In this document: piece by piece, positions 10,003 to 18,111 of the stretch
Layout of the letters: each line of letters begins with the position of its first letter
How positions within the stretch are numbered: the stretch's first letter is position 1
Virus record (IMG/VR): IMGVR_UViG_3300021961_000705
Coordinates: 1-22,287 of that record
Source: a virus
Length of the DNA: 22,287 bases
Strand: one strand, 5' to 3'
Made by a program: the position numbers and the translations under genes
The notes under the pieces: model-generated
What the model was told of the DNA's origin: nothing
Seen by the model: only the letters and a program-made list of their open reading frames with translations
Databases searched by the model: none

Positions 10003-13000
10003 TTAGACGACAGCCCAGTTGGCACCACTACTAATTGTTACTGTAATGCCACTGTTAATCGTAATTGGACCAGCCGACATACCGTTTCTTGTAGAAGCCA
10101 TTGTGTAGTTTGCTGTGATTGCTTGTGCGTTTTCGTAAATTACACCACCAGCAGCAGCCACTTCTACACCGTTAACGGTAAGATCATTAAGAACAGATGT
10201 ACTTGCTGGATTCGTATAGTATGAGGTGTTGTCGCTATCGTAAAAGATTGGTGCACGGCTCGAACCGGGGCTAAATGTGTATGAGGTGTAAACCCTAAAC
10301 TCATCGTTACCGCCAGCAGAAATACCAACAATGTCTGCGCCGTACCTATACATCCCGGTGTTTAGGTCCGCCGTCCACGTAAAGGAAGGGGTACCCGCCG
10401 TATCGGCATCAATACCCTGAAATCCACCATTAGTTGTACTGGTAGCGTTGAACGTTGGAGCATCAACAGTGAGTGATGATGAAACCGCTGTTGTGCTAAT
10501 AGTTAAACGATTTGTACCACCAGTCGAAAAACCAATCTGATCGGCAGCAGGGCGCCACACCCCTGTGTTTGTGTCACCCGTCCAAGTATGGGCTGGGGCA
10601 GCGGCGGTATCGCTGGCTGATCCATTTAAATAGTTAGCAGAAACAAAAGTACCTGCGGTCACAGAGGTAGTAGCACTAAGGGCACCAACGCCAAGCTGTC
10701 CTGAATCAGGATAATAATACAGATTCGAGCTTTCGTTGAGACGCTTATGACCAGCTGTTGAATCATCAACAAAAGTTAGGTATCTAATACCGCTGCTGGT
10801 TTGGTCATCTTCCACATACGGCTCAAGTGTGTAGTTTGCTGAGCCGTTAACACTAACGCCGTTGATTGTACGAGCCGTGCCCCAGCTTGATGTCGTAATG
10901 TTGGCGGTTCCGTCAAAACTTGTACCATTTATTGTCCGTGCGGTTGTAAGTTTCGTAGCCTGACTTGCGCTGGATGCTGAACCAGCAATGCTTGTCTGTA
11001 TCGCAGTTTCCACAAGGCTGGAGGTTATGTTAGTGTACCCTGTTAGACTTGTCGTAGCGGTAACAGTCCAATCTTTACAATAAGCATCAGTCACACCACT
11101 ATGAGAGAACATGGCGTGGGTGATCGCAAACATTGGATAACTCCAAGTCGATGTCACATCTCCAATAATCACGCAGTTTTTACCACTAGGGTCTACACCA
11201 AAACGTACAGAAATGTTGTCTGTACCCAAGGCGATCTTTCCAGTGCTTGCCCATGCACCCGTTGAGCGATATCCCTGCACAATACATAAAGCAGATTTAT
11301 TATCATGCGTATAACTTTCAATACGCAGACGGTGCATAATAGAACTGGCTGTAGTTGGTGCAATGAAGACAATAGCGCCAGTTTGTGCCGCAAGGTCGCT
11401 TTTATACTGTGCTAAACCAAATACCGTTCTGTCATTCGTAGATGCAGAACCAGAGTTTGGTGTGGTGTAATGTGTATTACCACCATTAGTTTGCAATGTA
11501 ATACCAGTGTATGTTCCAGTAAGACGAGCGTCAGGTAATGTACCAGAGGTGAGGTTGCTGGCGCTGGTGTTAACAGTATCAACCCAAGGGACGTTAACCA
11601 CGCCTTGTCCAGCAGAGTTAACTTGCAAAGCATACGTTCTGCTTGCTGTTGCTGTTACTGCGTTGGCGGCAACTGTTTGCTGAGTATCAGAACCCAACTC
11701 AATACCACCCCGCACCGTGCTAGTCGCTGCTGGCAAGGTATAAGTAGTATCAGACCAAGGAACGTTTACAACTGCTTGACCAGAGCTATTAACTTGAATA
11801 CCGTAAGTTCTAGATGCAGTTGTAGTTACAGCATTAGCCGCTGTTGATTGAACCGTATCGTCTTCAAGCTTAATTAAACCTAAGTTGGTTGTAGTTGCTT
11901 GGCTATAAGTGGTATCAGTATCTTGTGCTAAATTACGCCAACCAGTCCATGTTCCATTATAGTATGTGCGATGGTAGTAGTTTGTGCTGCTATATTGAGA
12001 ATACAATTGGGTAGTATGTACCCCATTACCATAATCGTCATTTATTACTTGCAAAATACCAGCATTTGCAGTAGGGTAGTTTGATCCAGAAGCCGCATCT
12101 GCATTTGCGTTTTGAGTATAAAAACCAGTCGTTCTATAAGTGTTCAGGTCGATTGAACCGGGAATCTCGTTACCAGTAATTCTAAAATCTGTACCAGAAA
12201 GAGAAATCCCTTTTGATGCAGTGTAAGTAGTATTTGTATCTGTCCAAGGGACGTTTACAACTGCCTGATCTGAACTGTTGAGTTGAACAGCATATGTGCG
12301 TCCAGATGTTGCAGTGACAGTATTAGCAGCTACTGTTTGATCTGTGTCACTCCCAAGTTTAATCAATCCAAGGGTTGAAGTTGTTGCTGTGCTGTAGGTT
12401 GTATTGGTATCTGTCCAAGGGACGTTTACAACTGCCTGATTAGCAGAGTTAAGCTGAATACCATAAGTACGGCCTGCAGTTGTTGTTACAGCATTAGCCG
12501 CCACAGATTGATCTGTGTTACTAAACAACTCGATCAAACCAGCTGTGGTATCAGTGGCTATTCCATAAGTTGTGTTTGTAGAATTAATAGTAATACGCTG
12601 ATTAGTCTCATCCCAAGCTACCGTAGAAGCACCAGAGCCAACTACGTTAATAGAGTCCGTACCACTACCGCTACCACCAGCAATTAACTCAATATTTACA
12701 CTATTAGTTGTACCTGAGCCATCTAATATATAAGTGGTATTATTGTCTGTAGCTGTAGCCGAAACAAGCCCAGTAATATGACCAAAATCATCAAGAGTAA
12801 TATCTTGAATAAAGGTATTGCCAGAATTATCTACAGAGGCTTGTGTAGACGTATCAGCGTGGCTAATCGTAATCGAGGTATTAGCCGTCTGGTTAGCAGT
12901 ACCTAATTGAGCACCACCAGTTAATCCAGACCCCGTACTAACAGTAAATGAACCATTACCTACGCTAGGCTGAGATGCAGCAATAGTTAGGGTATCAGTG

Positions 13001-14898
13001 GCGCTGTCTGTAGTAACAGTTACGTTACTGCCGCCGACAATAGTTAGTGTGTCGTTGTTTGAATCGGCAACGATAGTGTTTTGCCCAGATACAGCAATGT
13101 TCTTAAATATGTTCTGAGACGAGCCACGGTCAGTATTGGTCAGCGTAATAGAGGTAGCGCTAGCTTGGTTAGCTGTTCCTAGTTGCCCGCCACCGGATAA
13201 GCCGGTGCTTGTGTTGACAGTGAAGGTGCCGTCGCCAACAGAAATTGCACTCGTGGAAGCAGCAGTTACACGCCCCTTGGCGTCAACGGTCAAAGACGGA
13301 ATAGCCGTCGACGAACCATATGTTCCAGCCGTAACTCCACTATTAGCCAGCGTCGCGGCAGCCGTAACGTTCTGCGAACCATTAAAAGACGGGCTTGTGT
13401 ATGTCACGTCGCCGGTCATGGCAATAGTGCGCCCAGTCGCCAAAGTACTAGCGGTAGTGGCGTTTCCACTCAAGGCGGCGCTAATGATATTAGCAGAGAA
13501 ATTACCAGAGGTGTCACGGGCGACAATCGTAGAAGCCGTGTTCGCACTAGTAGCGTTAGAGGTAACTGTAAACGTCGAAGCAGTGGCTTGGTTAGCCGAG
13601 AAAGTCGCGCTTCCAGAAATACCGGTGCCGGACGTATTAAGAGTCAGTGTGCCATCGCTAGCCGAAACGACGTTTTGCCACGAAGCAGTAGACCCGTCCG
13701 TTTTCAGGTACTTTCCTGAGTTACTTGTTTGCGTCGGTAACAGGCTGTCTTTTACAGCCGTCGAGACGGTTCGAGTAGCCGAGATGTGAACGTACTGGGG
13801 GTGGTCATCGTCCACCAGCCCGGAAAGATTGCCGTGGTCTGTAGCTGGATTTGCAGCTGGGTTCGCCGCACTAAGCGACCGCAGATCAATCACATTGACA
13901 ATGCGGGCGTGGGGGATGTTAGTGTTTGCGTCCGCGCAGTTGTACACTAACTTGTACAAGGGCCGAAACTCGACTGACGGAAAATCTGGTAAGTTTAGCG
14001 AGCTAAAGCTAGTTGCCTCGGCGTCACCCTGACTATCCGCCTGACTCTGCCCAATGATTGCAACGACAGGGTACGTTAGGTTGTTAGTCGCCAGAATCCA
14101 TGTAGTGCCGTACTTATTGTTCGTGACATCAGCCGTAGACCACACGCCGCCAGAAAGCAAGTTGTATTGCGGGCGCGCAGTGCCTTGCTTAAGGGGGAAG
14201 TTGGTGGGAGCGTCCAGAACCCAAGCGGTGCCTTGCAGATGCAAGACTGGAATCTTGGCTGGGAAAGCCAAATCTTGCTGCCATGTATTAGCAGTGGGAG
14301 TAGCAGTTGACACAATGTCAACCTGCATGTCTTCGTCGAAGAACGTGCCGCCTTCTACCGCTAACTGAGCATCGGCATCTAAATTGCCAGACCCGCTAGT
14401 AGTGTACCCACTAGCCGCGAAACCATTGGCGATAGCAGCGCCACGTGTGCGGTGCAAGTATTCGTGCGTCTGCCAGTCTAAGACAACCCCATGACGCTCG
14501 TCACCGAAATAAACAGCCGCGCCAGTAGTGGCGTTCCAGTAGACGTAAGCCGTAGGTGCGTCGCTGTCCCACGTAAAGTATGTTGTCTTGGTAGACAGCA
14601 CACCGGCGTTGCTGAAATAGATGTAATGCAGCCCTGTGGTATTAGGGATAACCACTGTTTTGGCTGACGTAAAGACATGTTTGTTGCCTTTACACCACAC
14701 AGTAAACGACGCGCCTACGGGCGAGATACTAAACGTACGAGAAGCTGCTGTAAAGCTAATCGAGGATTCAGTAATATCCTCATGCCCAATAGGCTCGCCA
14801 CCTACCGTAGCTACTTCGGCTAAATTTGTAAAGTTCGCATCGACCTCCGCGTTGGTTAGCGGTGAGCCTTTGCCAGCACGGGTGACGATGTCGACCAT
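10003..14898 (-). CDS. Long modular tail fibre (1631 aa)
   Basis: By far the largest gene. The N-terminus, MVDIVTRAGKGSPLTNAEVD followed by ANFTNL, is the usual virion-attachment start of many phage fibres. HGNLSGLVDDDHPQY near residues 353-368 is a known fibre coiled-coil motif. Next come three related G-T-x-T-x-N-T/S-G-S/T-G-[LI]-S/T-G units, then two pairs of 57-residue repeats (about 775-893 and 995-1110) separated by a pyocin-knob-like domain (about 895-992, with GSIDLNTYRTTGFYT and WTGWRNLAQ). Two TARTINGxSxDG motifs, two TWTxDxNTGxxR units and an IFYDSDNTSYYTNP motif follow, then a 47-residue tip. No S74 chaperone is seen. GGAGA lies ahead of the ATG. It probably binds the host surface as a trimer. 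Confidence 0.92.
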   Translation of the reverse strand: MVDIVTRAGKGSPLTNAEVDANFTNLAEVATVGGEPIGHEDITESSISFTAASRTFSISPVGASFTVWCKGNKHVFTSAKTVVIPNTTGLHYIYFSNAGVLSTKTTYFTWDSDAPTAYVYWNATTGAAVYFGDERHGVVLDWQTHEYLHRTRGAAIANGFAASGYTTSGSGNLDADAQLAVEGGTFFDEDMQVDIVSTATPTANTWQQDLAFPAKIPVLHLQGTAWVLDAPTNFPLKQGTARPQYNLLSGGVWSTADVTNNKYGTTWILATNNLTYPVVAIIGQSQADSQGDAEATSFSSLNLPDFPSVEFRPLYKLVYNCADANTNIPHARIVNVIDLRSLSAANPAANPATDHGNLSGLVDDDHPQYVHISATRTVSTAVKDSLLPTQTSNSGKYLKTDGSTASWQNVVSASDGTLTLNTSGTGISGSATFSANQATASTFTVTSNATSANTASTIVARDTSGNFSANIISAALSGNATTASTLATGRTIAMTGDVTYTSPSFNGSQNVTAAATLANSGVTAGTYGSSTAIPSLTVDAKGRVTAASTSAISVGDGTFTVNTSTGLSGGGQLGTANQASATSITLTNTDRGSSQNIFKNIAVSGQNTIVADSNNDTLTIVGGSNVTVTTDSATDTLTIAASQPSVGNGSFTVSTGSGLTGGAQLGTANQTANTSITISHADTSTQASVDNSGNTFIQDITLDDFGHITGLVSATATDNNTTYILDGSGTTNSVNIELIAGGSGSGTDSINVVGSGASTVAWDETNQRITINSTNTTYGIATDTTAGLIELFSNTDQSVAANAVTTTAGRTYGIQLNSANQAVVNVPWTDTNTTYSTATTSTLGLIKLGSDTDQTVAANTVTATSGRTYAVQLNSSDQAVVNVPWTDTNTTYTASKGISLSGTDFRITGNEIPGSIDLNTYRTTGFYTQNANADAASGSNYPTANAGILQVINDDYGNGVHTTQLYSQYSSTNYYHRTYYNGTWTGWRNLAQDTDTTYSQATTTNLGLIKLEDDTVQSTAANAVTTTASRTYGIQVNSSGQAVVNVPWSDTTYTLPAATSTVRGGIELGSDTQQTVAANAVTATASRTYALQVNSAGQGVVNVPWVDTVNTSASNLTSGTLPDARLTGTYTGITLQTNGGNTHYTTPNSGSASTNDRTVFGLAQYKSDLAAQTGAIVFIAPTTASSIMHRLRIESYTHDNKSALCIVQGYRSTGAWASTGKIALGTDNISVRFGVDPSGKNCVIIGDVTSTWSYPMFAITHAMFSHSGVTDAYCKDWTVTATTSLTGYTNITSSLVETAIQTSIAGSASSASQATKLTTARTINGTSFDGTANITTSSWGTARTINGVSVNGSANYTLEPYVEDDQTSSGIRYLTFVDDSTAGHKRLNESSNLYYYPDSGQLGVGALSATTSVTAGTFVSANYLNGSASDTAAAPAHTWTGDTNTGVWRPAADQIGFSTGGTNRLTISTTAVSSSLTVDAPTFNATSTTNGGFQGIDADTAGTPSFTWTADLNTGMYRYGADIVGISAGGNDEFRVYTSYTFSPGSSRAPIFYDSDNTSYYTNPASTSVLNDLTVNGVEVAAAGGVIYENAQAITANYTMASTRNGMSAGPITINSGITVTISSGANWAVV
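10006..10146 (-). repeat. C-terminal 47-residue tip module, copy 1 (long fibre)
   Basis: Encodes the last 47 residues of the 1631-aa fibre and aligns without gaps to the end of the 293-aa fibre (20 identities by my count). The shared core contains AGPITI-x-SGI and a glycine six residues from the C-terminus. Confidence 0.7.
11572..12590 (-). repeat. Two pairs of 171-bp coding repeats flanking a 106-codon insert
   Basis: The block CCAAGG (encoding part of N-V-P-W on the other strand) starts at 12415, 12244, 11755 and 11584. The spacings are 171, 489 and 171 bases, that is 57 residues within each pair plus a 106-residue insert between pairs. Within the first pair about 40 bases around 12231-12269 and 12402-12440 are nearly identical. 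Each unit reads roughly TTY-x5-LGLI-x-L-x-SDT-x-Q-x-AAN-x-V-x5-RTY-x2-Q-x-N-x4-AVVNVPW. Confidence 0.85.
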
Positions 14899-14912: not shown

Positions 14913-15350
14913 TTAAGACACAGTAATTTGCCAAGTGATGCTCATCGCATCGTCTGCGCCTTTGTTAACAACAGCAAATACAGTACGGCAAAGCATAACA
15001 CCGCCGGTGGGGTCGTTAAATAAACCTGCTTCTGTAACCGCACCAGTACCAGTACCGGCGGGGAAATCGCCTACATAAGTGACCACAGCACCAGATGAAG
15101 TATCTGAAGTCAAAGCAACGCGGCCCAACTCGCTACCAAGGTTTGTGTTTCCTGCAGCGGCGGCTGATGTACCAGCACCGACAGCCATGTGGCTCATCTG
15201 AGTGGGCGTGCCAACCATCGCAGCAGCAATAAATTCTTTACCTGATGTAACCACCAAGTTCTTAATATTTTGCTCTTGCTTAAGGACACCGTTTTTATCA
15301 AAGACCTTAATCGCTACTGCGCCGGTCACCTTCAAGTTCTCTTGGAACAT
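14913..15350 (-). CDS. Tail-type structural protein (145 aa)
   Basis: A 145-aa beta-rich protein. The N-terminal part has AIKVFDKNGVLKQEQNIKNL and the core has MSHMAVGAGTSAAAAGNTNL followed by GSELGRVALTSDTS, then ITWQITVS at the end. The pattern M-A-V-G-x-G-T-x-x-x-x-x-x-x-T-x-L-G-x-E-x-x-R is one I know from small phage tail or baseplate structural proteins. AGGAG lies six bases upstream of the ATG and covers the stop of the 18-residue-repeat gene. It directly precedes the long fibre gene (14 nt apart) and may form the collar or anchor for it; that is inference. Confidence 0.8.
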   Translation of the reverse strand: MFQENLKVTGAVAIKVFDKNGVLKQEQNIKNLVVTSGKEFIAAAMVGTPTQMSHMAVGAGTSAAAAGNTNLGSELGRVALTSDTSSGAVVTYVGDFPAGTGTGAVTEAGLFNDPTGGVMLCRTVFAVVNKGADDAMSITWQITVS

Positions 15351-15359
15351 GATTTACTC

Positions 15360-16484
15360 CTATAAATATCGGGAGTCCCCGACGTAGTCTTCTGCGAAAT
15401 AGGTCGGGTCGCAGTAACCCTGACTGACAAGCCCAAAACTTTCTGAAACAGAAAAAACGTCAGACAGAACTGGACTAACCAATATGGTAGCATTATCGCT
15501 CAATAGCGCAACGTTTGCTACTGTTCGCTCCCACACAAACGCAATACCGTCCCCCGCGCCAAAGTTGTCGTTTAGGGCGAAAGCGTCGTCGAAATAACGA
15601 ACATAGATGAGCGTTGGGGTGAGAATATCGGTAATAAACGTCTCATCAGCAAGACCTTTGCCAACGTCCAAAGTAGCGTCATCTGGAACAGACAGCGTAT
15701 CTTGAAGCGGCTTTAAAAACTCATAGCTAGAGGCCTCCGCCGCCACTATGGTGTCATCCACTGGCTTACTCAGCTCAAACGTAGAGTCTTCAGAAATAGA
15801 GAAGCTGTCAGCGAGCGGCTTACTGAAATCTAAAACCGGAGCGTCGGATATAGAGAGGCCGTCAGCTACTGGCTTTACAAACCCCTTTTCTGTGGCTTCA
15901 GTAACAGAAGTAGTATCGGAAATAGGCTTGACGGTCGAAAACGCAGCGGCGTCAGCTACCCATACCTCGTCAAAAGCGCGGCGCGCTACGTCAAGAGTGT
16001 CGCTATCCTGCAGGGAGATGCTATCTTGCGTAGGGCCTTTAGTAAAATCAAAAGCGGCGGAACTACCTAAAGCGACCGCGTCAGACAGCCCTTTTTGCGC
16101 CCGTACCGTCGAAAAATCGCTAGTGGCAAAGCTATCCGTAGCTGAGCGGCTAAAAGCCAACGAAGCTGAGTCTATAGCAGAAATAGTATCGGTGCGCAGC
16201 TTAGCGAGCGTAAACTGCTTGCCTTCTACTACGGCCACAGCATCTATGACATACTTATACAGCCCCGTGTAGTCAATGGTAGTCGCGACAGCGAAGCTAA
16301 TGTAATCAAGCTGCGCGGCAGGTACAGAGTATGTAAGGTCGCTGCTTAGAAGCGTGTAATTTGTCTGCGCGACTGGAGATACAGCGGTGACGCCAGCTAC
16401 AGGCGCAACAATAGAGACACTCAGCCTCGGCTTTACGATCTGAGCGGAAGCGCTAGGGCTAACAATGGTTAGCCTAGTCGCCAT
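15360..16484 (-). CDS. Repeat protein of tandem 18-residue units, tail region (374 aa)
   Basis: Residues 1-90 form a beta-rich head (AQTNYTLLSSDLTYSV, IDYTGLYKYVIDAVAVVEGK). Residues 91-285 consist of about eleven units of 17-19 residues, most exactly 18, with consensus F-x-KP-L/V-x-D-[ST]-x-S-[IV]-x-[DE]-x-x-x-x-[DE] (for example FSKPLADSFSISEDSTFE). The C-terminal part has one more weak unit and the conserved-looking end GYCDPTYFAEDYVGDSRYL. The regular D-S-hydrophobic spacing suggests a beta-solenoid or elongated rod. It is coupled to the BppU-like gene by a one-base overlap (TAATG at 16482-16486) and followed by tail and fibre genes. A structural linker between adaptor and fibres is a reasonable guess; I know no tested function. 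Confidence 0.85.
   Translation of the reverse strand: MATRLTIVSPSASAQIVKPRLSVSIVAPVAGVTAVSPVAQTNYTLLSSDLTYSVPAAQLDYISFAVATTIDYTGLYKYVIDAVAVVEGKQFTLAKLRTDTISAIDSASLAFSRSATDSFATSDFSTVRAQKGLSDAVALGSSAAFDFTKGPTQDSISLQDSDTLDVARRAFDEVWVADAAAFSTVKPISDTTSVTEATEKGFVKPVADGLSISDAPVLDFSKPLADSFSISEDSTFELSKPVDDTIVAAEASSYEFLKPLQDTLSVPDDATLDVGKGLADETFITDILTPTLIYVRYFDDAFALNDNFGAGDGIAFVWERTVANVALLSDNATILVSPVLSDVFSVSESFGLVSQGYCDPTYFAEDYVGDSRYL
15630..16214 (-). repeat. Array of ~54-bp coding repeats (about eleven 18-residue units)
   Basis: The central part of the 374-aa gene encodes tandem units of mostly 18 residues. The units at residues 185-274 are the most regular, each with a KP near the start and an Asp-Ser/Thr step. 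DNA identity is modest, so the array is old and kept at protein level. Confidence 0.85.
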
Positions 16485-16816
16485 TAGAAGTCCTCGCGAA
16501 CTTTAAAGCGTAGGGTATCGTAGACTGTCTGGATTTGCCCGTCGCTAAACGTAATCTCGATCTCGCCTTCATAATCACCAGCATCACCAGCCAACATTTC
16601 TGGTGCAGAAGCTGGGTAGAAAACGCACACGCCATTAGGGCCGTCCGTGACCGTACCAGTAACAGTTGCAGTAAGCGTTGTAGCGCCTAAAGCGCGGAAC
16701 TTCAAAACAGGAGTAGCGCCTGTAAGTCCAATAGCAGACCCAGTCGTTTCGTCTGTCAGGGTGCAGACAATAGCAGGGCGGGTATCACCTTGGACTAGTT
16801 TGATCTTATCTACCAT
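16484..16816 (-). CDS. BppU N-terminal-like immunoglobulin-fold protein (110 aa)
   Basis: The start IKLVQGDTRPAIVCTLTD, the middle PVLKFRALGATTLTATVTG, the segment GVCVFYP, and the ending DYEGEIEITFSDGQIQTVYD then LRFKV follow the BppU N-terminal/Ig-like domain (DUF2479) known from baseplate upper proteins of siphoviruses. Here it is a stand-alone 110-aa protein, about one domain long. It is translated just after the 202-aa adaptor-like gene (9 nt apart) and is coupled to the repeat protein by TAATG. It could link the tail or adaptor to the repeat protein and fibres. Partner assignment is inference from gene order. Confidence 0.85.
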   Translation of the reverse strand: MVDKIKLVQGDTRPAIVCTLTDETTGSAIGLTGATPVLKFRALGATTLTATVTGTVTDGPNGVCVFYPASAPEMLAGDAGDYEGEIEITFSDGQIQTVYDTLRFKVREDF

Positions 16817-16825
16817 AACGCTTCC

Positions 16826-17434
16826 TTAAGCAGCCGGAGCCATAGTCACACTATGTTTGACACCGCGCATGTCACGAATACGAGCGCGAGAGATGGCTTG
16901 CTCGTATTGTTTTTTGTTGTACTCAGCCATGCTTACGTCTGTCCAATCCTTACCGGGGATAGCAGCTAGACGAGCAATAGTTCCGCAAATAATAGCGTCT
17001 GCCCATGTCTCGTAAATCCAATCTTCAACACCAGTGGCTGTACGGCTAGGCTTCAGGACACCGGTAAGGCGTAGATGAACACGGGAGTCCGGAATAGGGA
17101 ACAGGCGAATGGAATTATCGGACTGAATCCAATAGTGAGTAGGATTACCCCTATCGTACCGCCGATCATTGGGGATCATGCGAATATCAGTATGCTGCAG
17201 CGCCATATTATCAACGACAACGGATGTCACTGCTTCTACAAAAACATCAGCGCTGAGGTCGTACTCAACGATGCCGGGGGCTGTAAAAATAGGATCAATG
17301 TCGTCGCGCCAAAGGTGCGTCTGCGCAAAGAAATCCGCTGCTGTAATAGCAAGGTATGTTTTAACAGTGATGTCAGGGCAGCCCGGAATGTGGGGCTTCA
17401 CCAATGGTAAGAAGTCATCCCACACTTTTGCCAT
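16826..17434 (-). CDS. Second head-tail adaptor / tail tubular-like protein (202 aa)
   Basis: A 202-aa protein with an alpha-helical start (MAKVWDDFLPLVKPHIPGCP), a helix with AADFFAQTHLWRDDIDPI, a beta-rich centre (IVEYDLSADVFVEAVTSVVV, then IRLFPIPDSRVHLRLTGVLK), and helical C-terminal segments around DWIYETWADAIICGTIARLA. Helix-beta-helix order of this size fits the adaptor/tail-tubular-A type in short-tailed phages, and the gene sits immediately after another adaptor-like gene. It overlaps that gene's stop by one base (TAATG at 17432-17436), so the two are probably made in fixed ratio and act together below the portal. The exact family is not certain to me. Confidence 0.7.
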   Translation of the reverse strand: MAKVWDDFLPLVKPHIPGCPDITVKTYLAITAADFFAQTHLWRDDIDPIFTAPGIVEYDLSADVFVEAVTSVVVDNMALQHTDIRMIPNDRRYDRGNPTHYWIQSDNSIRLFPIPDSRVHLRLTGVLKPSRTATGVEDWIYETWADAIICGTIARLAAIPGKDWTDVSMAEYNKKQYEQAISRARIRDMRGVKHSVTMAPAA

Positions 17435-18111
17435 TATGCAACTCCGGGTTGTGACGCTGCCTCGACCTGACCTTTACCAGTTAATGCAGCTTGGAACGCT
17501 TGCAGGTGCGCTACAGCTCGTTGAGAATTACCTGCATACTCTGCGTCTTTGCTGTAAGCGCGATACAGAATGTAGTCAAGGATCGCACCAGCGTAACTAT
17601 CATCAACGCTAATTGTGTCGGTAGTCAGGGGGTTTCCTAACTCAACTTCTGTGAGAGAGTGACCTTGCGGTACAGACGAGTACACAATCTCTAGTTGTGC
17701 AGTAGCAGCCGCGGGAGGATACACCAAAAATTCTTTGGGTAAGCGCGGGTCAAACATGTAGTGTTGAACCGTCACAACTGGCGTGTCACCATACCACGTA
17801 CTACGCTGGTCATCAAGCATGTTTCGGTTGGTTAGACGGATCGCGCTTTTATCAGAAGCAGCAGCGACGTTACGCACAACATCAATCAAACGCAGGGCGC
17901 TAGAAAATACAGAAGTGACGTTTTGGCGAGGACCTACTGCGCAAGTGAAAGTGCCTGTCTGCGTATTCGCGTCCGGGCGCAAATTGATAATGTCTCGGTA
18001 CGAATCATTCAACCACAACTGCAGCTCGGTGAGCGGCCATCGGACAGAGGTTGTGTCTTGCAGTAACGTTTTAGCACGTGCTACTACTTCTACGACTTTA
18101 ACTGCGGCCAT
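17434..18111 (-). CDS. Head-tail adaptor-like protein, DUF6682-like (225 aa)
   Basis: The opening AAVKVVEVVARAKTLLQDTT followed by VRWPLTELQLWLNDSYRDI matches what I recall of the DUF6682 phage family. The centre has DPRLPKEFLVYPPAAATAQL and the end DDSYAGAILDYILYRAYSKD, again typical. Such proteins are placed after the capsid gene and, in my reading, act as portal-ring adaptors closing the head. GAGG lies before the ATG and overlaps the stop of the 90-aa gene. It is followed by the 202-aa gene with a one-base overlap. Confidence is good for a connector role and moderate for the family name. Confidence 0.75.
   Translation of the reverse strand: MAAVKVVEVVARAKTLLQDTTSVRWPLTELQLWLNDSYRDIINLRPDANTQTGTFTCAVGPRQNVTSVFSSALRLIDVVRNVAAASDKSAIRLTNRNMLDDQRSTWYGDTPVVTVQHYMFDPRLPKEFLVYPPAAATAQLEIVYSSVPQGHSLTEVELGNPLTTDTISVDDSYAGAILDYILYRAYSKDAEYAGNSQRAVAHLQAFQAALTGKGQVEAASQPGVA

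Follow-up and report, generated by a model that had tools for sequence, protein, structure and literature searches.

In work by Zheng from 2023, fibre I of phage GP4 is reported to be built of Gp80 dimers that an elongated rope protein joins together, seated on a 15-fold adaptor. If Gp80 is the bead and Gp77 the ring, gp79 would be our guess for the GP4 rope. PDB entry 8jov is presumably the GP4 portal-tail structure. In the available text of the LSH1 study, 8JOU_g is described as a dimer and as a fibril between adhesin and nozzle collar (PMC13243795), and available sections of two further papers attribute a 15:12 mismatched collar to GP4 (PMC10925440) and identify ORF78 as its tail fibre II (PMC11966396). 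A literature search of titles, starts of abstracts and open-licence PMC papers found no phage thread built of 18-residue repeats. A search of our phage collection did not turn up GP4 itself, the best identity there being below 60%.

In this study, we examined a repeat protein of 374 aa encoded in the tail region of a virus genome, and consider it fairly probable that it serves as the thread in a bead-on-rope side fibre carried by a short-tailed phage, an 18-residue counterpart of the rope in GP4 fibre I. In our best reading, the number of repeats in the thread would set the length of the fibre. This reading draws together what we observed: the repeat, a near-constant gene order, a match between period and bead family, the paired replacement of both partners, and length steps of 72 residues. 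The window, by which we mean the whole stretch of DNA analysed, is a virus record of 22,287 bases whose gene content (portal, capsid and two SU10-type adaptors) resembles that of a short-tailed phage. After the adaptors, the same strand carries in order a 110-aa protein, the 374-aa repeat protein, a 145-aa protein and a 1631-aa fibre-like protein, with the following features:

17434..18111, minus strand: SU10-type adaptor, homologue of PDB chain 8jov_2 (E 1.5e-30)
16826..17434, minus strand: second SU10-type adaptor, phrog_437 (Pfam, PHROG)
16484..16816, minus strand: 110-aa protein, phrog_1084, candidate ring or collar anchor
15360..16484, minus strand: 374-aa repeat protein, putative thread (rope) of a bead-carrying fibre (ORF, self-comparison, unit matrix)
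16257..16484, minus strand: N-terminal region of the 374-aa protein, residues 1-76, putative virion-anchoring end
Residues 70-74 of the 374-aa protein, minus strand: LDxxG-type element, IDYTG in the window (from the sequence)
15606..16256, minus strand: 12 consecutive 18-residue units, residues 77-293, with one extra residue at 149 (unit matrix)
15546..15575, minus strand: ND..DG landmark LNDNFGAGDG, irregular, residues 304-313 (from the sequence)
15420..15527, minus strand: two further, weaker 18-residue units, residues 320-355 (unit matrix)
15363..15416, minus strand: C-terminal tag YCDPTYFAEDYVGDSRYL, residues 357-374, resembling the ends of relatives and of some sipho- and myophage carriers
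14913..15350, minus strand: 145-aa protein, phrog_5417, proposed bead; model pLDDT 88, fold common to GP4 Gp80, T4 gp8 and baseplate arm segments
10003..14898, minus strand: 1631-aa fibre-like protein with an N-terminal PLTNAEVDANF motif (from the sequence)

Both adaptors pass the SU10_adaptor (PF24175) cut-off of 27, at 95.0 and 36.0 bits. Elsewhere in the window, two small adjoining proteins (1946-2344 and 2360-2719) have alike starts (MSTIKVSTLANVSG and MSTLKVNTIQNTSG) and alike ends, and by eye look like duplicates.

Across residues 92-310 of the 374-aa protein, self-similarity peaks at lags of 18, 36 and 54 residues (z 9.0, 7.9 and 6.8; BLOSUM62, 1000 shuffles), the observed lag peak being 0.59 against a maximum of -0.07 at any lag from 3 to 59 in 300 shuffles. 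The 18-residue tandem repeats described by the first-pass annotation are thus real, as the z of 9.0 at lag 18 attests. A unit matrix, made from 116 distinct units of the window protein and its relatives, places 12 of them consecutively at residues 77-293, the extra residue falling between the fourth and fifth, and three weaker ones past these that reach residue 355 (15420), which brings the total to about fifteen. The earlier count of about eleven units at 15630-16214 was therefore sound as a count and slightly short in extent, the 12 consecutive units covering 15606-16256 with weaker ones beyond. In the window protein 13 positions exceed a score of 6, where shuffles (n=300) average 0.64 and reach 4 at most, a control that favours this protein since the matrix contains its own units. 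The unit consensus reads [KR]-x-[LV]-x-D-[ST]-x-[ST]-x-x-[DE]-..., where K/R1 and D5 are imposed by the selection rule and D/E11, which is free of it, is present in 110 of the 116 units. Each unit holds two hydrophobic strand-like stretches, and the protein as a whole is rich in Ser, Thr and Asp, with few cysteines. Tandem Repeats Finder detected no DNA tandem array anywhere in the window; the period is kept at the protein level. Among 30 members of the repeat-protein family, Pfam assigned 0 families and NCBIfam three only, the commonest being a serine-rich model in 3 of 30 that we read as composition. Sequence searches of the PDB with the single protein, its profile and a profile of the 20-residue ropes discussed below returned unrelated matches only (a ribosomal protein at E 0.32, HSP100 at E 0.0038); no phage PDB chain matched the 18-residue or the 20-residue rope profile, which counts against the thread reading.

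Five near copies of the protein in viral contigs are 100% or 91% identical to it, and all have the unchanged length of 374 residues. More distant relatives were selected by adaptor, by tag or by the 145-aa protein; contigs repeat the same phages, and counts are of distinct sequences where so stated. Among 52 adaptor-selected loci, the protein at the matching place has its best lag at 18 in 43, the exceptions being lag 20 in L024, L033, L058 and L067 and lag 15 in L066; L045 lacks the protein, and in L022, L046 and L061 it is incomplete or too short. At L066:3105-4814, a 570-aa collagen-like GPT-repeat protein replaces the 18-residue thread, after a 117-aa protein in the position of the 110-aa one. 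In L084, L092, L105 and others, the SU10-type adaptor matches are swapped relative to the window (the best match to adaptor 1 lies near -979 and that to adaptor 2 near -1623). Among the relatives, complete repeat proteins measure between 208 and 566 residues, with a terminal tag like YFAEDYVGxSRTF. A search of viral contigs for the tag pattern matched at least 600 stretches, of which at least 533 were confirmed and 80 kept, and among the matches listed the best lag between 12 and 30 is 18 in all 81 distinct tag-collected proteins (at least 120 aa, from 145 loci). Because this set was chosen by part of the repeat protein itself, a second selection was made via the 145-aa protein alone. In the best 80 of the matches listed there, 66 of 75 distinct upstream proteins have a best lag of 18 and 66 of 75 bear a YFxEDYVG-like C-terminal end; the 9 of 75 without best lag 18 and the 9 of 75 without the tag pattern, again in the best 80 listed, count against the thread reading. 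These nine tag-less proteins (best 80 listed) comprise two near-misses (L309, L316) and seven other endings. Other C-terminal endings, such as SVLNTSAFNTSVLN, are seen on 18-lag proteins of L300, L302, L304, L312, L313, L315 and L318.

The near-constant gene order bears out the earlier placing of a repeated tail-region protein in a fibre cassette. In the repeat- or adaptor-selected loci (80 distinct proteins), a homologue of the 110-aa protein lies upstream in 75 of 75 having at least 1.2 kb there, and a homologue of the 145-aa protein is present in 77 of 77 loci, selected in the same way, having at least 600 bases downstream; in L035 it is reversed and 2.4 kb off. Within the best 80 of the matches listed for the 145-aa protein, the 110-aa homologue is upstream in 73 of 75 loci (HMM E<=1e-4), with the LTxxEVDxNF fibre motif downstream of the bead gene in 60 of 73. 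It looks as though the whole cassette could be exchanged in one piece, because its flanking genes stay more identical than the capsid and second adaptor: in L072, an example of several loci, they are 74-75% identical against 48% for the capsid and 26% for the second adaptor. Isolated phages with the cassette are Achromobacter CF418P1 (18-lag z 4.4) and Aeromonas phiA008 (z 5.8; without the tag). Protein gp36 of EBPR siphovirus 1 also has lag 18 (z 8.3). In Aeromonas phage phiARM81mr (L153:9809-11095), an annotated retron-type reverse transcriptase lies two genes after a virion protein; the end of this virion protein looks lectin-like and perhaps forms a diversity-generating element with the reverse transcriptase. 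Searching 50,697 phage records by tblastn with the window and L060 proteins (low-complexity filter on) found phage BUCT-ZZ01 only, and the L006 protein found no match in them; a C-terminal piece at E up to 10 led to Achromobacter phages and phage Simon, plus many weak tail-sheath matches. Genome contigs scanned with the repeat alignment gave 42 pattern matches and 0 confirmed relatives.

Thread length among the relatives changes mainly in blocks of four repeats, that is, 72 residues. From LDxxG to tag, 41 representatives below 60% identity (from 79 proteins with both anchors, of 124) fall into classes of 164-168 (8), 237-242 (19), 309-311 (7) and 369-370 (3) residues, with single lengths of 220, 292 (the window), 442 and 1089. 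Phase clustering of these lengths is 0.893 for a period of 72, 0.757 for 18, 0.694 for 36, 0.672 for 19 and 0.66 for 24, and with each length cluster counted once it is 0.778 (72), 0.59 (18) and 0.243 (36). Internal landmarks were measured in 69 representatives of 115 tagged proteins, where each landmark was found. A FIR element sits 55-65 residues after LDxxG in the counted relatives; its distance to ND..DG is 48, 120 or 192-193 in 20 of 22 representatives (two at 252). The tag comes 105-106, 178-179 or 250-251 residues after this FIR in 25 of 27 (two at 310), and ND..DG precedes the tag by 58-59, 130-132 or 202 residues in 40 of 44, the others being 96, 186, 265 and 337. Representatives that leave the commonest FIR-to-ND distance with an 18-residue phase keep the 72-residue phase in 10 of 10 cases, where one in four would be expected, and likewise in 11 of 11 for FIR-to-tag and 7 of 9 for ND-to-tag, on reference distances picked after seeing the data and on non-independent representatives. 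The window protein stands outside the FIR counts, since its FIR-like elements come 94 and 222 residues past LDxxG. Between ND and the tag it has the common 58, and its core of 292 residues differs by 72 from the 220 in L006. The ND..DG landmark (for example DGVAMNDSFDLGDG in L029) is Asp/Gly-rich and could be a metal-binding loop.

The region before LDxxG can vary by single units as well: L127 and L138 (89.6% DNA identity) show a length difference of 54 bases close to the start, at a position that is uncertain in detail. Length thus varies by whole units among related phages, and the earlier suggestion of a length-setting role is a reasonable one. A four-unit super-repeat in the sequence was considered and rejected: averaged over 36 proteins, self-similarity declines steadily between lags 18 and 144 and does not go up at 72, which makes the 72-residue step a length rule and not a visible sequence period. 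In pairwise alignments, 214 of 472 gaps of at least 6 are exact multiples of 18; we do not use this as proof because aligning repeats favours such gaps. In a first Rayleigh test of 27 representatives over periods 8-40, 18 shared its rank with 12, 34 and 35.

The 145-aa neighbour resembles Gp80, the bead in fibre I of GP4; this likeness suggests a bead-on-rope fibre and improves on the statement of the first-pass annotation that no tested role was known for such repeats. Pfam scores it against Gp80 (PF23140) at 18.6 bits (E 0.0024), below the cut-off of 27, and hhalign aligns it to Gp80 homologues at 57% over 31 columns. With its AlphaFold2 model (pLDDT 88), plain Foldseek gave one match at E <= 0.001, a tail protein of Haloferax tailed virus 1, and 8jou is absent among the best 50 Foldseek matches listed, which counts against the thread reading. 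A VIA alignment of the model with 8jou_a, entitled 'Fiber I and fiber-tail-adaptor of phage GP4', has Z 7.8 and rmsd 2.8 over 106 residues. The Haloferax protein, A511 gp105, phi812 arm segments and T4 gp8 score from Z 11.2 to 7.0, the Haloferax protein (Z 11.2) and the baseplate arm proteins (Z about 10) outscoring 8jou, and the first clearly non-phage row stands at Z 4.2. As Z 7.8 is below 8, the modelled likeness is a family resemblance of phage arm and bead proteins, not proof. For the 110-aa protein, a Pfam scan up to E 1 gave no BppU and two sub-threshold unrelated hits only, so that the BppU-like label attached to it earlier lacks Pfam support. Nor does it have a Pfam hit to Gp77 (PF23148), hhalign giving a probability of 0.4% against two Gp77 homologues, which counts against the thread reading; its sole PHROG match is phrog_1084, whose function is unknown in PHROG. 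With both GP4-type Pfam tests (Gp80, Gp77) failing, the window cassette is not a GP4 fibre I member by sequence.

A genuine Gp80 (PF23140, E 9e-44 in BcepMigl) and a genuine Gp77 (PF23148) occur in Bcep22-like relatives, where the gene directly after Gp80 encodes a repeat protein. In seven proteins the 20-lag z is 9.5 (BcepIL02), 7.6 (DC1), 4.7 (BcepMigl), 4.3 (JC1), 3.3 (Itty13), 8.7 (L024) and 6.6 (L058); in JC1, lag 22 is higher than lag 20. L058 is a Gp80-like locus among the adaptor-selected relatives. An HMM of Gp80 built from five homologues (three were tested and lie above the PF23140 cut-off) matches 69 distinct genes, 56 of them with a testable ORF directly after. The best lag of this ORF is 20 in 46 of 56, 18 in none and another lag in 10, these last counting against the thread reading. 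Conversely, 80 of 89 distinct phrog_5417-type genes, a set partly chosen by the repeat, have an ORF directly before them, with lag 18 in 77 and lag 20 in one. In three loci (L024, L033, L067), the window-type adaptor and 110-aa protein stand beside a Gp80 bead and a 604-aa protein of period 20 instead of the 18-residue pair, the L024 bead being Gp80 by Pfam and those of L033 and L067 98 and 96% identical to it; from this paired replacement, bead and thread appear to be exchanged together. The 18-residue and 20-residue rope families do not match each other by hhalign, which counts against the thread reading. BcepIL02 gp56 and BcepMigl gp57, both 20-period proteins, are annotated as virion-associated. 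In the available text on JC1 virion mass spectrometry, bead gp53 and ring gp55 are found and repeat protein gp54 is unlisted (PMC9144972), which again counts against the thread reading.

Repeats with a tag-like end are also borne by other virion proteins. In BUCT-ZZ01, a T4-like Synechococcus phage, they occur on the protein after gp6 (18-lag z 14.4), whose N-terminal part matches Baseplate_wedge at 31.3 bits (cut-off 27). Achromobacter siphophage JWT has similar repeats and a tag-like end on a phrog_384 protein after the tape measure; phage Simon has its counterpart, and a bead-family gene comes next in both. The repeats of JWT and Simon are best at lag 20 (z 4.1 and 2.8) and not at 18, despite a phrog_5417-like bead, so a strict rule tying 18 to phrog_5417 does not fit; this too counts against the thread reading. 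That the virion-binding end varies and the tag often stays suggests that the N-terminus would anchor the protein and the tag would face outward. PHROG 384, a siphophage virion structural protein family, shares C-terminal repeats and a tag-like end, with matches in 12 of 30 members, and differs in that these are carried on another N-terminal tail protein, after the tape measure, and in that the repeats are shorter (lag 20 in JWT and Simon). The HMM of PHROG 12240, whose function is unrecorded, hits the window protein with E 3.4e-5 and also 14 of the 30 aligned members, which may reflect shared repeat composition.

Were the 374-aa protein such a thread, its N-terminal part would dock on a neck collar, a role that the 110-aa protein may fill, and the repeat region would run outward as an extended chain. 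Copies of the 145-aa protein would bind along it as beads, in register with the repeat, and the conserved C-terminal tag would hold a distal fibre at the presumed far end. More repeats would give a longer thread and, probably, more bead sites, four units possibly making one bead station.

Other explanations have to be weighed against this one. The lone-chain AlphaFold2 model of the 374-aa protein (pLDDT 40.2, pTM 0.24; alignment of 30 sequences) has low-confidence strands that recur, and Foldseek found no PDB fold match for it at E <= 0.001, a poor model that also counts against the thread reading. Such a failure would be expected for an intertwined trimer, and the protein could be a self-standing homotrimeric fibre shaft, triple beta-spiral-like, with the 145-aa protein serving only as adaptor to the next fibre in the manner of baseplate arm segments. 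Two hydrophobic strand-like stretches per unit would suit this, as would the finding that the 145-aa model is less like Gp80 than like the arm proteins of phi812 and A511 (Z about 10). We hold it to be unlikely, because unit length follows the family of the neighbour and a self-sufficient shaft needs no such match.

We give still less credence to the monomeric beta-solenoid rod acting as a spacer that was proposed earlier. The fixed unit length, the few cysteines and the recurring strands of the model agree with it, and the pLDDT of 40, the pTM of 0.24 and the lack of a PDB fold match at E <= 0.001 are weak evidence against it; of the original interpretation, the repeat protein with length variation stands and the solenoid rod is not borne out by the monomer model. 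Equally improbable to us is a flexible adhesive or ejected protein with no fixed partner, which would neighbour tail genes by location merely. A sequence rich in Ser, Thr and Asp fits such a protein, as does the rope homologue left unlisted for JC1 virions in the available text (PMC9144972), while the near-constant cassette, the conserved C-terminal tag and the length steps of 72 argue against it. The bead-on-rope thread remains our preferred reading.

More tentatively, and with the odds rather against so full a scheme, there may be a bead-thread code: 18 residues for phrog_5417 and 20 for Gp80, with four-repeat (72-residue) blocks as bead stations, gene length counting the beads, and a repeat-plus-tag stalk portable among podo-, sipho- and myophage tail proteins. 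Under this code the window thread, with its core of 292 residues, would carry about four stations. The thread reading offers a guess at function for a family common in viral contigs (at least 533 of at least 600 pattern matches confirmed) that has no Pfam hit in 30 members. It makes testable a general question, namely how a phage fixes the length and bead number of its side fibres, for which the steps of 72 residues and the pairing of repeat length with bead family supply precise predictions.

Among known systems, Anabaena myophage A-1(L) has beaded neck fibres, five on a 15-fold neck ring, and differs in that its beads are gp81 trimers modelled head to tail, with no rope mentioned in the available text (PMC10966104). 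The gp34-gp36 cassette of LSH1 is likewise made of three genes, and according to the available text encodes an Ig-fold protein, a dimeric protein (HHpred 8JOU_g) and a badly predicted spacer protein (PMC13243795). The authors' working model, which we liken to ours by description, starts with the Ig protein on the virion, continues with the dimer fibril and ends with the payload, as far as that text goes (PMC13243795). With respect to GP4 fibre I, the differences are repeats of 20 residues in the GP4-type (Gp80-family) proteins versus 18 in the window, rope profiles that do not match, a gene order of collar-rope-bead in the window versus bead-repeat protein-(fibre)-Gp77 in BcepMigl, and an extra C-terminal tag on the window-type rope. 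The likenesses are a related SU10-type adaptor in the window (8jov being presumably a GP4 entry), a 145-aa neighbour with the Gp80 fold by its model (Z 7.8), a repeat protein beside the bead, judged via the Gp80-family cassettes of Bcep22-like relatives and not GP4 itself, and the three loci in which one bead-repeat pair stands in for the other.
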